DNA of 64,000 bases from Calditrichales bacterium MX18-03 (lineage in GTDB: Bacteria; Bacillota; Clostridia; Lutisporales; Lutisporaceae), in contig JAJGRE010000002.1 of assembly GCA_021083345.1 (NCBI GenBank), positions 620,001-684,000 on the forward strand, read 5' to 3'. The position numbers and the translations under genes were made by a program. This document shows, piece by piece, positions 22,845-53,521 of this stretch (within the stretch, counting starts at the first letter, position 1; every line of letters starts with the position of its first letter). Under the pieces are notes generated by a model that was given only the letters and a program-made list of their open reading frames with translations, searched no databases and was not told where the DNA came from.

Positions 22845-23065
22845 TAACACACCAGGTTGCAAACGCTGGTATGCACGTCTAACCCTTGGTCCAATCAGGT
22901 TTCTTTTGTCCCATCAATCGCTTGAGGATTTGTAAAACCTGTGATACTGTTGAACCACAGCACGGGGAACCCGCCGAAAACTTCGATTAACCCCGACCTC
23001 GTCAACTGATATATTTGGTGTGTATAAGCCTTGTATACCATCAAATATCCCAGTCTGGCGCTACA
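22845..23065 (-). ncRNA. glmS ribozyme/riboswitch
   Basis: The minus strand carries the conserved order of the glmS ribozyme in the leader of glmS: the cleavage-site sequence TAGCGCCAGAC with the cut expected between 23062 and 23061; GTTGACGAGGTCGGGGTTAA followed by TCGAAGTTTTCGGCGGGTT and CCCCGTG, which form the double-pseudoknot core; then the accessory P3-P4 part (ACCAAGGGTTAG). Glucosamine-6-phosphate acts as cofactor for self-cleavage, lowering glmS mRNA. Boundaries of the 3' accessory part are approximate. Confidence 0.93.
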
Positions 23066-23303
23066 TTCAGTTTAACTCACCTTGCATCCTGTCACCACCT
23101 TTCTGCTATGGCTGCGCTTCCTGTACCCCCTCCTTTTTTAATCAATCCGGAACCCTAATGTTCCTATACAATTCTATTCTATTTTTCCGGATATTTCAAG
23201 CAAAAGTTTGATAATATATATGCAAATTTGGCACTCACGATGCCATTATCCGTAATATATCATATTCCGCTGTGTCTATAGAGGTGCTTGGAACGCTGAA
23301 TGC

Positions 23304-48687: not shown

Positions 48688-49371
48688 ATGCCGCAAAAGG
48701 GACGATTACCTGTAGAAAGGAAAATAAAGATCGTTGAAGACTACTTGGCCGGGAAGGAAGGAATTAGCTCTATATGTGAAACAACAGGGATCAGCCAGAC
48801 TATACTAAGACAATGGGTACGATTGTATGAGACGCGGGGTATAGAAGGCCTGGTACCAACTGCAAAGGACCGGAAATACTCTGCTGAACTGAAAGTGATG
48901 GTAGTAAAAGAGTATATAGCAGGAGATATTTCTATAGAAGGGCTATGCCGAAAATATGACATTACAGATCCTCAGATTGTACGAAGATGGATAAAGAAGT
49001 ATAATGACCATAAAGAGTTCAGAACACCAAAAAGTGGGAGTGAAATCTATATGGTCAATGGACGCAAAACTACCTGTGAAGAACGCATAGAGATGGTGAG
49101 TCACTGCATTTCCAATGGAAAGGACTATGGCAAGACGATTGAGAAATACCACGTATCCTACCAGCAGATTTACAGTTGGGTACGAAAGTACGAAGAACAC
49201 GGTGTGGAAGGGCTCGTCGATAAGCGCGGTAAGAGAAAACCATTGGAAGAGATGAACGAGGTCGAGCGCCTTCGTGCGGAAGTTAAACTGTTAGAGGCTG
49301 CGAACAGACAAAAGGATATGGAGATAGAGATATTAAAAAAAGTTCAGGAGGTAGAAAGGAGGCGGGACTGA
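48688..49371 (+). CDS. IS3-family OrfA, multi-HTH
   Basis: 227 residues, longer than usual OrfA proteins (about 90-100). It seems to hold three successive helix-turn-helix units (about residues 8-50, 62-105 and 125-175) and a C-terminal leucine-zipper helix (EVERLRAEVKLLEAANRQKD). An A7 slippery run at 49335-49341 (TTAAAAAAAGTT) near its end allows -1 frameshifting into orfB. Confidence 0.9.
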   Translation: MPQKGRLPVERKIKIVEDYLAGKEGISSICETTGISQTILRQWVRLYETRGIEGLVPTAKDRKYSAELKVMVVKEYIAGDISIEGLCRKYDITDPQIVRRWIKKYNDHKEFRTPKSGSEIYMVNGRKTTCEERIEMVSHCISNGKDYGKTIEKYHVSYQQIYSWVRKYEEHGVEGLVDKRGKRKPLEEMNEVERLRAEVKLLEAANRQKDMEIEILKKVQEVERRRD

Positions 49372-50258
49372 ACGGCGTCAGGCAGGAATGTCTATATGTT
49401 GCAGTTACTGAGTTACATAAAGAGAAAGGTTATCCTATTGAAAGGATCTGCCGAATCTTAAATCTGAACCGGTCATCATACTACAAGTGGCTCAGCCGCA
49501 GCAAGAGTGCGCGAGAGGAAGAGAGCGAAGATTTGCTACATAAGATTGGATATATATATGCCGAATTCAACGGGATTTATGGATACCGCAGGATAACAGA
49601 CGAGTTGAACAACCAATGCAATACCCAATACAACTACAAGCGAGTTTACCGTTTGACGAGGATCGTAGGGCTAAAGGCTGTCATCCGTAGAAAGCGTCCG
49701 CAATACCAGCGCTCCACACCGGAGATTACGGCAGAGAACATTCTGAACCGTAAGTTTACAGCAGATAAACTCAACGAGAAATGGCTAACCGATATAACAG
49801 AATTCAAATATGGAGCCAATGAGAAACTGTATTTGAGCGCAATCCTCGACCTTAAGGACAAGGGTATTGTTTCATTTGCAATTGGAAAACGTAACGATAA
49901 TCGCCTTGTATTCGATACGTTTGATCTGGCTGTAGCCAAATATACTGACGCCCATCCGCTATTTCATAGCGATCGGGGCTTTCAGTACACCAGTCGGCAG
50001 TTCAAATCTAGGCTGGATAATGCCGGGATGACACAAAGCATGTCCCGTGTGGGGCGCTGCATTGATAATGGGCCAATGGAGGGGTTTTGGGGCATCCTAA
50101 AGTGCGAGATGTACTATCTAAACAAATTTGAGGACTATGACAGCTTAGCCACATCTATTGAGCATTACATCCAATTCTACAACTTTGAGCGTCGTCAGAA
50201 AAAGCTAGATCATCTAGCGCCTATGACTTACCGACAGCTGCTCGAAAATGCAGCATAA
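49332..50258 (+). CDS. IS3-family OrfB transposase, expressed by -1 frameshift
   Basis: DDE integrase-core transposase of about 300 residues. The frame is open from 49332 through the slippery A7 and has no good start codon before LNGVRQECLYV at about 49368. HTH_21 region: IYAEFNGIYGYRRITDEL. Catalytic residues: Asp in WLTDITEFKYG, Asp in HSDRGFQYTS and Glu in GPMEGFWGILKCE, all present. It is probably made as an OrfAB fusion; the AGGAGG just after the slip site might also start OrfB alone. Confidence 0.88.
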   Translation: MKKSSGGRKEAGLNGVRQECLYVAVTELHKEKGYPIERICRILNLNRSSYYKWLSRSKSAREEESEDLLHKIGYIYAEFNGIYGYRRITDELNNQCNTQYNYKRVYRLTRIVGLKAVIRRKRPQYQRSTPEITAENILNRKFTADKLNEKWLTDITEFKYGANEKLYLSAILDLKDKGIVSFAIGKRNDNRLVFDTFDLAVAKYTDAHPLFHSDRGFQYTSRQFKSRLDNAGMTQSMSRVGRCIDNGPMEGFWGILKCEMYYLNKFEDYDSLATSIEHYIQFYNFERRQKKLDHLAPMTYRQLLENAA

Positions 50259-50357: not shown

Positions 50358-51314
50358 TTAGAATTTTCTTCCGATCTGCTTGCGGATAATATCAGCAATG
50401 ACTTGCTTTGCACCTGTCTCCGGCAGTGAAGCTGCGCTTTTCAGCGCTTTGTCGATATATTTTTCGGCGATTTTTTGCGCCCGCTCCAAGGACTGAGTCT
50501 CAACAAGCACCTGCCTGAGCATTTCTCCTTTGTCATCCGGCAGCCTTTCTATGGCGTCAAGGGCTGACTTCCGCTGCTTGGACCGCAGCGCATAGATCAC
50601 CGGGAGTGTATATACGCCTTGCAATGCATCGCTGAAAAGCGGTTTACCCACGGTGGTCTGCTCCCCATTAAAATCCAGAAGGTCATCTACGATCTGAAAA
50701 GCCATACCGATCTGGTGTCCCAATATGCTCAGCTTGCTGACCAATCCGGCCGGACAGCCCGCCAAATGGGCACCTGTACCAAGGCTGACCGCAAAGAGAG
50801 CGGCTGTCTTGCCGCTGATTCTTCTGAGATACTGCTTGACAGAAACACCGGTGTCATACCGCTGCTCGTTTTGTGCGATTTCGCAGTCGCATATGAATGC
50901 CATGCCTTTTGCAACGGTTTTGACCAGTTCCGGCTCCACCAGATCCCCCACCAGTACAAAGGCCCGGCTGAAAAGAAAATCGCCTGCATATACCGCTATA
51001 TCTTTTCCCAGGGCGGATTGAAGTGTCTCACTTCCCCTTCGCAGTCTTGCATCATCAATGATGTCATCATGGACCAGGGTTGCCATATGGACGACTTCTA
51101 TTGCTGCTGCTGCGGGAATGATTCTCTCGCTTTTGTAATCGCCGAAGGCGGCACCCAGAATGACGCAGGCAGGTCTCAGTCGCTTTCCGCCGCTTTCCGT
51201 TAATCTGAGCAAGGCAGCTTCAACGGTCTTGTTTCTGGTTTTTAAAACTCTTTTCAGTGTATCCTCAACCTTTAAAAGCTCTCCCGGCAAAAAAGCGTCA
51301 TGCCACATCTCCAT
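50358..51314 (-). CDS. polyprenyl diphosphate synthase (HepT/DmkB-like)
   Basis: About 318 residues, trans-isoprenyl diphosphate synthase. First Asp-rich motif LVHDDIIDDARLRRG (about 83-97), second VDDLLDFNGEQTTVGKP (about 210). It makes the long side chain of a quinone or similar lipid. The start lies inside the end of the Gx-family gene (overlap of about 17-26 bases; ATG at 51314 or 51308, TTG at 51323). It forms an operon with the Gx-family and NusG-II genes, a combination typical of demethylmenaquinone supply in flavin-based electron transfer loci. Confidence 0.88.
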   Translation of the reverse strand: MEMWHDAFLPGELLKVEDTLKRVLKTRNKTVEAALLRLTESGGKRLRPACVILGAAFGDYKSERIIPAAAAIEVVHMATLVHDDIIDDARLRRGSETLQSALGKDIAVYAGDFLFSRAFVLVGDLVEPELVKTVAKGMAFICDCEIAQNEQRYDTGVSVKQYLRRISGKTAALFAVSLGTGAHLAGCPAGLVSKLSILGHQIGMAFQIVDDLLDFNGEQTTVGKPLFSDALQGVYTLPVIYALRSKQRKSALDAIERLPDDKGEMLRQVLVETQSLERAQKIAEKYIDKALKSAASLPETGAKQVIADIIRKQIGRKF

Positions 51315-51825
51315 CACTTCCAATCTTCAGTATATGCTTCATGGGCCCAACTGCATATTTCACCGCAAAGCCTATGAAAAGACCTGTTATCACCGCTGAA
51401 ATCAATAAAACCGGCAGATAAAGAAACAGCCTGGCATTCATGACGATCAGACTGGCTACTGCAATCTGCCCGAAGTTATGAAAGACGGCCCCTACGACAC
51501 TGATAGCCGGCAAACTGAAAAGCTTCCTGTAATACTTGTACATCAATGTCATGGCAAAGGTACTCAAATACCCGCCTGCAATGCTGTATAGGAAAGAAGA
51601 AATACCTCCGCCGAAAACCGAACCCAGGAAGGTCCGCAGCGTAACCACCAGCAGCGCTTCCTTGCCTCCAAAAATAATAATGGTTATAAGGGTGATGACA
51701 TTTGCCAGCCCCAGCTTGATTCCCGGCACGGGAACAGGTACCGGAATCATCCTCTCTATTATGTGTAGTATCAAAGCCTGGGAAACCAGAATTCCCAAAA
51801 GGACCATCTTTTTTGTTTTACTCAC
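51298..51825 (-). CDS. Gx transporter family (heptaprenyl synthase component I-like) membrane protein
   Basis: 175 residues with about five membrane segments and the IPVPVPVPGIKLGLANVITL motif of the Gx/Hpre_diP_synt_I family, related to ECF-type substrate-binding membrane proteins. Despite the old name it is not an enzyme subunit by sequence. From memory, EetB of flavin-based extracellular electron transfer loci belongs to this group. It is translationally coupled to the polyprenyl synthase gene and follows the NusG-II gene by about 20 bases. Confidence 0.85.
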   Translation of the reverse strand: MSKTKKMVLLGILVSQALILHIIERMIPVPVPVPGIKLGLANVITLITIIIFGGKEALLVVTLRTFLGSVFGGGISSFLYSIAGGYLSTFAMTLMYKYYRKLFSLPAISVVGAVFHNFGQIAVASLIVMNARLFLYLPVLLISAVITGLFIGFAVKYAVGPMKHILKIGSDGDVA

Positions 51826-51846
51826 GTCTGCACCTCATCATTCCCG

Positions 51847-52242
51847 TTAATACGAAACATTGTCAACCTGGGAATTGCCCTTTCCTTCTATAAAAACAAC
51901 GACCTTATTGGGCAAGCAGACAATGCTCTGACCGGTCTTGTCAATGGTCCCGGTCTTTTGGCAGAGCTTGTCTGGACAGATGACATTTTCCACATGCACA
52001 CCTTTGCCGTCTGCAACGATATCGATGAACCGCTTCTCATCCAGCTCGATATGGAACGTCTGCCGCTTCATCCCCTTGTTGAAGGGCGTTCTCTTGTATG
52101 GTTGTCCATCAACTTGAATGACAATCTCCCCGCCGCTCCCGCTGTCCTTTATTTGCTCCAGGCCGAACCAGGCAAGACCGGCCGCTATCAGAATCACAAG
52201 AATGACGATATCGCCTTTTTTAAACTTCATTTCATCACTCAC
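51847..52242 (-). CDS. NusG domain II-containing membrane protein (EetA-like)
   Basis: 131 residues: an N-terminal membrane helix (about 12-28, DIVILVILIAAGLAWFG) and an extracytoplasmic NusG-domain-II fold with a conserved pair in VICPDKLCQKTG and IVCLPNKVVV. Three Cys residues (about 89, 93, 109) could bind metal or form a disulfide. Related proteins occur as EetA in flavin-based electron transfer loci (from memory). The start is either GTG 52242 or ATG 52230. First gene of a three-gene operon, divergent from apbE. Confidence 0.82.
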   Translation of the reverse strand: MSDEMKFKKGDIVILVILIAAGLAWFGLEQIKDSGSGGEIVIQVDGQPYKRTPFNKGMKRQTFHIELDEKRFIDIVADGKGVHVENVICPDKLCQKTGTIDKTGQSIVCLPNKVVVFIEGKGNSQVDNVSY

Positions 52243-52465
52243 TTCACTTGGTATTATACGACATCATTTTTGCTCAGCACTATTATAACATGAATTTTTG
52301 TTTTATAATATTATAAGACATAATCTTAATTAATATTTAATTGTAGTTTTGTCGTCAATGCTGTTTTTTTCTGCATTTATATACAGCATCCCTGCTTTAT
52401 GATTGCATTTTACCTGCCTTTTGGGTAAAATAAGCACTAGAAAAGATGTTTAAGGAGGATCCGCT
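52243..52465. other. divergent intergenic region
   Basis: About 220 AT-rich bases between the EetA-like operon (minus) and apbE (plus), which must hold both promoters. A TATAAT-like box appears near 52305-52315 on the plus strand. No gene or clear RNA motif. Confidence 0.4.
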
Positions 52466-53521
52466 TTGATTTATAAAAAAAGATTTGCCCTGTTGCTTGC
52501 AGTCCTGATACTGTTGCCCATGCTTTCCGGCTGCGAAGCCGCAGAGACGCCGGCACCTGCATCGACACAACCTTTGTCGAAGTCCGCTTTCCTGTTGGGA
52601 ACCTATGTCGATATATCTCTATTTGATAAGCTGGATGAAAAAATCATCGACAAGGCATTTGACCGGATTGCAGAAATAGAAGCAAAAATGACGATTAATA
52701 ATGCCGAAACCAGTGAAATCATCAAGCTCAACGAGGCATCGGGCACCGGTGCTGTCAAGTTAAGCCCGGACACATACCTGGTGGTCGAAAGAGGCAAATA
52801 CTACTCCGAGCTTACCGAAGGCAAATTCGATATTACCGTCGGTTCTATCGTGAAGTTGTGGAATATCGGAACGGATTATGCAGCCGTTCCTGAAGACAAG
52901 GTAATCCGTGATACGGTGAAGCTGGTGGATTATCAAAAGCTGCAGCTGAAAGCCGCCGACCATTCCGCAATGCTTCAGGAAGCCGGTATGAAGGTGGATT
53001 TGGGCGCCATCGCAAAGGGCTATGCAGCGGATGAAGCAGGCCGGATCCTACGGGAAGAAGGCGTCAAGCATGCTATCATCAACCTGGGCGGGAATGTCCT
53101 GACCGTAGGAGGCAATCCCAATGGAAACCAATGGAAAATCGGCATCCAGGATCCTTTCAACCCCCGCGGAGACTATCTGGGCATCGTGCCTAGCCAGGAT
53201 AAGACCGTTGTAACCTCAGGAACCTATGAAAGATACTTCGAGCAAAACGGAAAAAAATATCACCACATCCTGAATCCCGAGACCGGATATCCGGTTGAAA
53301 ACAACCTTCACAGCGTATCCATCGTCACCGAAAAGTCCATCGACGGTGACGGCCTGTCCACCACCTGCCTGCTGCTGGGTGTTGAGGAGGGCATGAAGCT
53401 GATTGAAAAACTGGATCATGTTGAAGCCATTTTTGTAACCGGAGATAAAAAAGTCTACGTATCCTCAGGTCTGAAGGATATATTCCTGCAGACAAGCAGT
53501 GACTTTACAATCGTGAACTGA
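52466..53521 (+). CDS. apbE: FAD:protein FMN transferase, lipoprotein
   Basis: 351 residues. The signal sequence ends in a lipobox LSGC (Cys about 23), so it is anchored outside the membrane. The ApbE core shows AFLLGTYVDISLF, ITVGSIVKLWNIG, DLGAIAKGYAADEAG (flavin/Mg site) and the DGDGLSTT motif near 290. It attaches FMN covalently to a Thr or Ser of target proteins such as Rnf/Nqr subunits or extracytoplasmic flavoproteins. TTG start with AGGAGG seven bases upstream. Corresponds to FmnB in electron-transfer loci. Confidence 0.93.
   Translation: MIYKKRFALLLAVLILLPMLSGCEAAETPAPASTQPLSKSAFLLGTYVDISLFDKLDEKIIDKAFDRIAEIEAKMTINNAETSEIIKLNEASGTGAVKLSPDTYLVVERGKYYSELTEGKFDITVGSIVKLWNIGTDYAAVPEDKVIRDTVKLVDYQKLQLKAADHSAMLQEAGMKVDLGAIAKGYAADEAGRILREEGVKHAIINLGGNVLTVGGNPNGNQWKIGIQDPFNPRGDYLGIVPSQDKTVVTSGTYERYFEQNGKKYHHILNPETGYPVENNLHSVSIVTEKSIDGDGLSTTCLLLGVEEGMKLIEKLDHVEAIFVTGDKKVYVSSGLKDIFLQTSSDFTIVN

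Follow-up and report, generated by a model that had tools for sequence, protein, structure and literature searches.

A four-gene locus in Calditrichales bacterium MX18-03 raises the question of whether this bacterium carries a reduced flavin-based system for extracellular electron transfer (EET) or a fuller one whose parts lie apart. The locus occupies 50358-53521 of the window, that is, the whole 64,000-nucleotide stretch analysed (C8:620001-684000 of a 4.69-Mb genome estimated to be 100% complete and 3.35% contaminated). On the minus strand it encodes a DmkB-like trans-polyprenyl diphosphate synthase of 321 amino acids (aa) (50358..51323; TTG start in the list of open reading frames, ORFs), EetB of the Gx family, a putative flavin adenine dinucleotide (FAD) exporter subunit resembling the S-component of energy-coupling factor (ECF) transporters (51298..51825), and the NusG domain II protein EetA (51847..52242); on the plus strand it encodes an ApbE/FmnB-like FAD:protein flavin mononucleotide (FMN) transferase (52466..53521). 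All four, recognized in an earlier note on this DNA, are confirmed by Pfam at scores far over the cut-offs: PF00348 at 207.5 bits (cut-off 27), PF07456 at 171.8 (30), PF07009 at 85.1 (29.6) and PF02424 at 310.3 (25.6), which places the two membrane proteins inside the EetB and EetA families. The link to flavin-based EET drawn in that note is supported, and we think it probable, at about three chances in four, that these genes load flavin and make the quinone tail for a flavin-based EET system whose parts are dispersed over the chromosome.

With the ORF coordinates as listed, dmkB overlaps eetB by 26 bp and eetB lies 21 bp from eetA on the same strand, so that the three look like one operon; apbE diverges from eetA across 223 bp (52243..52465), a region that, from its spacing and sequence, presumably holds promoters for both directions, with a GGAGG shortly 5' of the apbE TTG start. 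The synthase carries the motifs DDIID and DDLLD, and its best NCBIfam match, the HepT model TIGR02748 (270.8 bits), falls under the equivalog cut-off of 456.55; the profiles thus support at most the name 'DmkB-like long-chain polyprenyl synthase'. The transferase bears a lipoprotein-type signal (LSGC), EetA combines one membrane segment, at its N-terminus, with a domain that contains CPDKLC...CLPN, and neither EetA nor EetB has any NCBIfam match. The same order, with apbE reading one way and eetA, eetB and dmkB the other, is seen again in genomes of the same family.

Are the other EET parts missing from the genome, or only from the window? Whole-genome searches place no FMN_bind, UbiA, ECF-T or Ndh2 match in the window, and the absence of Ndh2, DmkA, PplA and FmnA claimed by the earlier note holds at that scale; across the genome it fails for Ndh2 and stands for DmkA, while a PplA-like protein is present and no dedicated FmnA was recognized. 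An Ndh2 of 609 aa, with Pyr_redox_2 and a C-terminal DoxD-like membrane part, lies together with a second EetA and a PplA-like lipoprotein at C7:1437.1-1440.3 kb; a second Ndh2, 59% identical to the first, is found at C7:1591.1-1592.9 kb, and an rnf operon at C7:1211.3-1216.5 kb (subunits named by eye, the FMN_bind domain of RnfG by profile). The genome has 12 FMN_bind matches in 10 proteins, eight of which carry a flavinylation-type SGAT/AGAT motif and the remaining two SGASAS or SGVTSS. These include a 710-aa protein with three matches and a LysM-FMN_bind-FAD_binding_2 protein (C9:346.1-348.1 kb) whose domains make it look like a wall-attached flavinylated reductase. Because the genome holds such flavinylation targets, the locus is not a remnant, and the 'reduced' system is an effect of viewing the window alone; in six relatives from genus g7 of the same family, Ndh2 sits directly at the EetB locus, in the order ApbE reading one way and Ndh2-EetA-EetB-DmkB the other. 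Two side observations concern related proteins: a second ApbE-family lipoprotein lies beside a LysM protein at C9:475348-476229 (194.8 bits to the profile vs 310.9), and a 592-aa protein at C7 ~1629.4-1631.2 kb (L018:377-2155) fuses an RnfD-like part (PF03116) to an RnfC-like one (PF01512 + Fer4); only a few genes separate it from two membrane proteins that bind FMN.

In Listeria-type EET, DmkA acts on dihydroxynaphthoate (DHNA). DmkA was not found in MX18-03, whose only two PF01040 (UbiA) matches are an MqnP-like protein and a second one that, considered as a DmkA, was rejected on its score of 291.5 bits (cut-off 234) as a decaprenyl-phosphate phosphoribosyltransferase. At C10:392.3-400.4 kb, however, the genome has MqnL and this MqnP-like prenyltransferase instead, in a run with an NMT1/THI5-type lipoprotein, an ATP-binding cassette (ABC) ATPase, a U32 protein, a class III aminotransferase and an ABC permease (ATPase, aminotransferase and permease named by eye). 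MqnL scores 647.0 bits with TIGR03701, over the equivalog cut-off of 495.9, and the MqnP-like protein 307 bits with TIGR01475, over 180.8, while it misses the exception model NF041586 (313.1 vs 430). PF02621 (VitK2_biosynth), which we take to be the family of MqnA and MqnD, has no match in this genome of 100% estimated completeness. Judged by PF02621 and, for the classical Men pathway, by MenA-type UbiA alone, the strain seems unable to make the quinone ring itself.

We propose an EET chain whose families, gene presence, order, neighbourhoods and co-occurrence are observed here, and whose biochemical steps are all carried over from published homologues. EetB, together with an ECF T/ATPase module, would move FAD outward, and ApbE would attach FMN to secreted FMN-binding-domain proteins, among them the PplA-like lipoprotein, RnfG, the LysM-FMN_bind-FAD_binding_2 reductase, the three-domain FMN protein and small membrane-anchored proteins. 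The ABC importer would take up carboxylated dihydroxynaphthoate, MqnP would join the polyprenyl tail made by DmkB to this ring, and MqnL, with prenyl-FMN from UbiX, would decarboxylate the prenylated ring. Ndh2 could then pass electrons from NADH to the quinone, and from there to the PplA-like protein and the secreted reductases.

The distribution of the two prenyltransferases was followed in 61 genomes: the source genome, 21 of the same family, and one genome from each of 39 further families in its class. A DmkA-type enzyme, called by similarity to two family members, occurs in 15 of the 22 family genomes, and all five of these proteins that were scored with NCBIfam pass NF004752 (347-385 bits, cut-off 289). 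MqnP occurs in five family genomes, alongside DmkA in G001, G002 and G011 and alone only in MX18-03 and G003 (86% complete). Ndh2 is present (in pieces in G015) in each of the 17 family genomes that have either prenyltransferase, and the two family genomes without Ndh2 lack both; in three Ndh2-bearing family members (G012, G013 and G014; 82, 84 and 69% complete) neither was found. Outside the family, five of nine Ndh2-bearing genomes have a strong DmkA or MqnP match, the others being G024, G032, G042 and G048; the UbiA proteins of G024 and G042 reach only 63 and 45 bits against DmkA. No strong match appeared in the 30 non-family genomes without Ndh2, a comparison that left aside the UbiA proteins of G032 and G058 and three weak matches. 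The divergent UbiA of G042 (C43; L087, L282; the 45-bit match) lies just beside Ndh2 in an EetB-DmkB locus, and may represent a third type of prenyltransferase serving the quinone branch. G015 (L131, L079) retains DmkA while its Ndh2 is fragmented, as though its quinone branch were decaying.

MqnL, as TIGR03701 over its cut-off, occurs in seven of the 61 genomes, all seven of which have Ndh2. In all seven, MqnL, MqnP and the binding protein of the importer are contiguous (the G003 contig ends inside the binding protein), and in six, MX18-03 being the exception, UbiX/MqnM stands between the Mqn genes and the importer. PF02621 is absent from six of the seven, among which four have a completeness of 92-100%; in the remaining genome, G033, it gives a single match of 35.5 bits. 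A scan of named genomes with an alignment of the binding protein gave 254 relatives, and among the best 80 of these 254 loci MqnP lies in the flank of 46 and MqnL of 44 (Mqn counts made without the ORF filter, which hides genes overlapping longer ORFs and would give 43 for MqnL). This set overlaps the 61 genomes, L198 and L199 being apparently G001:C71 and G011:C26. MqnP is on the strand of the binding protein in all 46 loci, and EET genes lie within the flank at 12 of these 46 vs none of the other 34 (p 0.0009, indicative only, given that the genomes are related). The Ndh2 floor of 220 bits used in that count excludes four weak Anaerovibrio matches (179-191 bits), and counting such matches puts EET genes at 4/34 of the loci without MqnP. 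In G001 the Mqn-importer operon adjoins apbE-eetA-eetB-dmkB. A 15-kb run of thirteen genes in Clostridium drakei SL1, all read the same way, has the order FMN_bind/FAD_binding_2 reductase, Ndh2, EetA, EetB, DmkB, ApbE, binding protein, ATPase, permease, U32, aminotransferase, MqnL and MqnP. Every gene of this run except U32 and the aminotransferase has a role in the proposed chain; PplA-like and UbiX genes were not seen in it. MX18-03 has the C. drakei gene set in scattered form, its reductase bearing LysM. As a side observation, the U32 and class III aminotransferase genes (L029:14185-17600, in the same operon in relatives) occur together at 13 of the 80 importer loci, and MqnP is present at all but one of these 13. 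U32 proteins are anaerobic hydroxylases in ubiquinone synthesis, and the pair may modify the quinone ring.

What does the importer carry? From its neighbours we infer that it is a candidate quinone-precursor importer. The alternative is that it carries some other cargo (a thiamine precursor, a sulfonate or another aromatic acid) and that the ring is made inside the cell by enzymes that the profiles miss. The family of the binding protein is broad (NMT1/THI5, SsuA, TauA, ThiY), and in a fold search with the C. drakei model (pLDDT 90.3) the Z scores of SsuA, TauA, ThiY and PqqT are nearly equal and exceed those of MqnD (Z 20.0) and MqnA (Z 15.9). This fold is common to binders of sulfonates, a thiamine precursor, bicarbonate and pyrroloquinoline quinone (PQQ), the last of which is a carboxylated quinone. 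A PqqT variant with PQQ bound aligns at Z 26.4 (root-mean-square deviation 3.0, 274 aligned residues, 15% identity), and by sequence PqqT is a weak match (E 3e-4); the modelled fold thus fits a quinone-like acid without pointing to that ligand in particular. The flanks of 34 of the 80 loci, mostly from Selenomonas, Anaerovibrio, Pelosinus and kin and some on short contigs, have neither MqnL nor MqnP, and six of these inspected by eye revealed no common quinone gene. Three family genomes (G001, G002, G011) have DmkA as well as MqnP, the profiles covered the Men pathway through MenA-type UbiA only, and the early futalosine steps have non-orthologous replacements according to Ravcheev and Thiele (2016; PMC4746308). 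Against another cargo stand the contiguity of MqnL, MqnP and the binding protein in seven of seven genomes, the absence of PF02621 from six of these, and the 12/46 vs 0/34 (or, with the weak Ndh2-like matches, 4/34) split in neighbouring EET genes. We would give this alternative somewhat less than an even chance. The wider proposal, that EET in many Firmicutes depends on a quinone ring taken from outside, is close to a coin toss: an NMT1-type importer would take up a carboxylated dihydroxynaphthoate produced by neighbours, to be used by MqnP (fed by DmkB), MqnL with UbiX, Ndh2 and the flavinylated proteins, DmkA acting on DHNA being an alternative input to the same export chain and some genomes having both.

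A second alternative concerns the locus itself, which might serve general protein flavinylation only (of Rnf and small FMN-binding proteins), with the tails from DmkB put to other use and no EET. An rnf operon is present in the genome, and a survey places eetB near rnf in 572 Clostridia, near eetA in 3,328 genomes and near apbE in 2,169 (Rivera-Lugo 2023, PMC9973259). The genome also has two further PF00348 synthases, and in 16 of the 37 informative genomes EetB occurs with neither Ndh2 nor an adjacent DmkB, ApbE being labelled nearby in nine of the 16. However, DmkB at the EetB locus tracks Ndh2: their presence agrees in 34 of the 37 genomes (18 with both, 1 with DmkB only, 2 with Ndh2 only, 16 with neither; Fisher p 2e-7) and, outside the family with one genome per family, the table reads 6/1/1/15 (p 5e-4). 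Left out of this table were G009, G012 and G013 (EetB locus at a contig end), G008 (EetB match below cut-off and stop-bearing), genomes without EetB, and the loci of six genomes that have it (G025, G038, G039, G044, G049, G052); for G042, which has a second EetB locus without DmkB (L088), the locus with DmkB was counted. DmkB labels come from phmmer with the window protein, which a distant synthase could escape. The two Ndh2-type genes and the PplA-like lipoprotein of MX18-03 likewise speak against a purely general role, as do the settings of the other synthases: one PF00348 gene lies in a dxs-type cluster and is farnesyl diphosphate synthase-like by eye, and the other, of long-chain type, adjoins a different ORF on C13 (L032:7629-9720). 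That ORF, an observation in its own right, has no NCBIfam match and looks like a tetraprenyl-beta-curcumene synthase. We regard general flavinylation alone as unlikely. The clearest case for dividing the locus in two is G018 (97% complete), which retains ApbE-EetA-EetB; DmkB was not found at its EetB locus, nor was DmkA, MqnP or a strong Ndh2 (the best match reaching 41 bits) found in the genome. From the co-occurrence of DmkB with Ndh2, and the persistence of EetB where both are lacking, we conclude that EetA-EetB-ApbE is general flavinylation machinery and that DmkB goes with the quinone/Ndh2 branch.

EetB, the sole PF07456 match of the whole genome, had been read in the earlier note, with EetA, as belonging to a membrane system that may move electrons. 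In a Foldseek search of the Protein Data Bank (PDB) with its AlphaFold model (pLDDT 86.8), each of rows 1-13 is an ECF S-component or an ECF transporter (probability 0.96-1.00, with weak E-values of at least 0.011), among them TmRibU (TMq 0.75), ThiT (4tkr) and 4huq. In Listeria, according to PMC9973259, EetB is similar to the S-components of ECF transporters and binds FAD, and FAD does not reach the flavin transferase without it. Since this published role and the modelled fold agree, supplying flavin is a more likely role for EetB than carrying electrons. The cysteines of the EetA pattern CPDxxC...CLP, all three outside the membrane segment, are kept in 45/45, 43/45 and 45/45 of the EetA-like ORFs of relatives, and could have a redox or metal role. 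A reduced system in which EetA and EetB would carry the electrons from quinol to the flavinylated proteins is highly improbable: these (nearly) invariant cysteines and the co-localization of eetA and eetB in 3,328 genomes speak for it, but the EetB family is that of the FAD-binding S-subunit of an ECF exporter in fold as in the reported need for Listeria EetB in FAD export, eetA deletion in Listeria is described as giving no EET phenotype (both in PMC9973259), and the parts missing from the window are present in the genome.

Several points weigh against a dispersed but working EET system in MX18-03. Its parts are unlinked, with loci on C8, C7 and C10, and DmkA is absent, as described above. 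The PplA-like lipoprotein has one FMN_bind domain and scores 90.8 bits with NF041941 (cut-off 325). No dedicated FmnA-type ECF-T was recognized among the genome's three PF02361 matches, of which one lies in an EcfA-EcfA-EcfT operon amid ribosomal genes and two adjoin an ABC ATPase and a CbiM-looking gene (CbiM named by eye); Listeria EcfT is thought unable to substitute for FmnA in export, according to PMC9973259. Three relatives also depart from the DmkB-Ndh2 pairing: G056 has DmkB beside EetB without Ndh2, in G041, which has Ndh2, DmkB lies at a different locus, and in G015 Ndh2 is fragmented and DmkB is not labelled beside EetB.

Two other features of the window deserve mention. Between dmkB and a MATE gene lies an IS3-type insertion sequence with two ORFs on the plus strand (48688..50258; HTH_Tnp_1/HTH_28 and rve domains). 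That it had deleted a dmkA was considered and rejected, as dmkB adjoins MATE or bacA in relatives that lack the insertion, and no prenyltransferase is labelled in the interval. Since several relatives show this arrangement, the element, which was not seen at this place in any of them, seems not to have deleted any gene, and it is no part of the electron-export system. A glmS ribozyme is found at 22886-23073 (81.3 bits).

How, then, does this system compare with known ones? The Listeria monocytogenes EET locus, which we take to comprise ndh2, dmkA, dmkB, eetA, eetB, fmnA, fmnB and pplA, likewise has EetA, EetB, DmkB and an FmnB-type ApbE at one locus, and like it the MX18-03 genome has Ndh2 with a membrane part and a PplA-like lipoprotein. 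Unlike it, MX18-03 splits its parts over at least three loci, shows no recognized dedicated FmnA, has MqnP-MqnL and an ABC importer in place of DmkA, and has one FMN domain in its PplA-like protein, whereas Listeria PplA is a lipoprotein flavinylated at two sites. Given the split locus and the replacement of DmkA, the system is not a canonical Listeria-type member, yet by analogy would work like one. It resembles the Clostridia EetB/ApbE flavin-export modules described in Rivera-Lugo 2023 (PMC9973259) in having EetA-EetB with a neighbouring apbE and rnf in the genome; it differs in that those modules are often beside rnf, which is unlinked here, and in that dmkB is part of the module and tracks Ndh2 in relatives. 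The MqnL equivalog and adjacent MqnP-like prenyltransferase recall the late futalosine steps MqnP, MqnL and MqnM treated in Ravcheev and Thiele (2016; PMC4746308), which reports mqnP, mqnL and mqnM in gut genomes only alongside the Mqn pathway. Here, in contrast to the futalosine pathway, PF02621 is absent and an NMT1-type ABC importer lies within the operon. The importer lipoprotein shares the fold of PqqT/SsuA/NMT1-type binding proteins, but at the low identity and with the equal-Z ligands noted above. The flavin-export module is thus the known part, and the part followed up here is a proposed route of quinone salvage for EET.

Microbes are thought to exchange quinone precursors, and the importers are unnamed in the literature. 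Genes for the transport of such precursors 'remain to be annotated', in the words of one passage of Ravcheev and Thiele (2016; PMC4746308), and a passage of a 2023 study of EET in Lactiplantibacillus plantarum expects quinone uptake pathways 'yet to be identified' (PMC10746273). In the open-access literature, with subscription papers mostly outside the search, we found no paper that names a quinone-precursor importer or ties MqnL-MqnP to EET. MX18-03 illustrates that EET can be overlooked if contiguous loci alone are counted, and the three-gene importer, which in named strains including Clostridium drakei SL1 adjoins the enzymes expected to act on its cargo, is a directly testable candidate.

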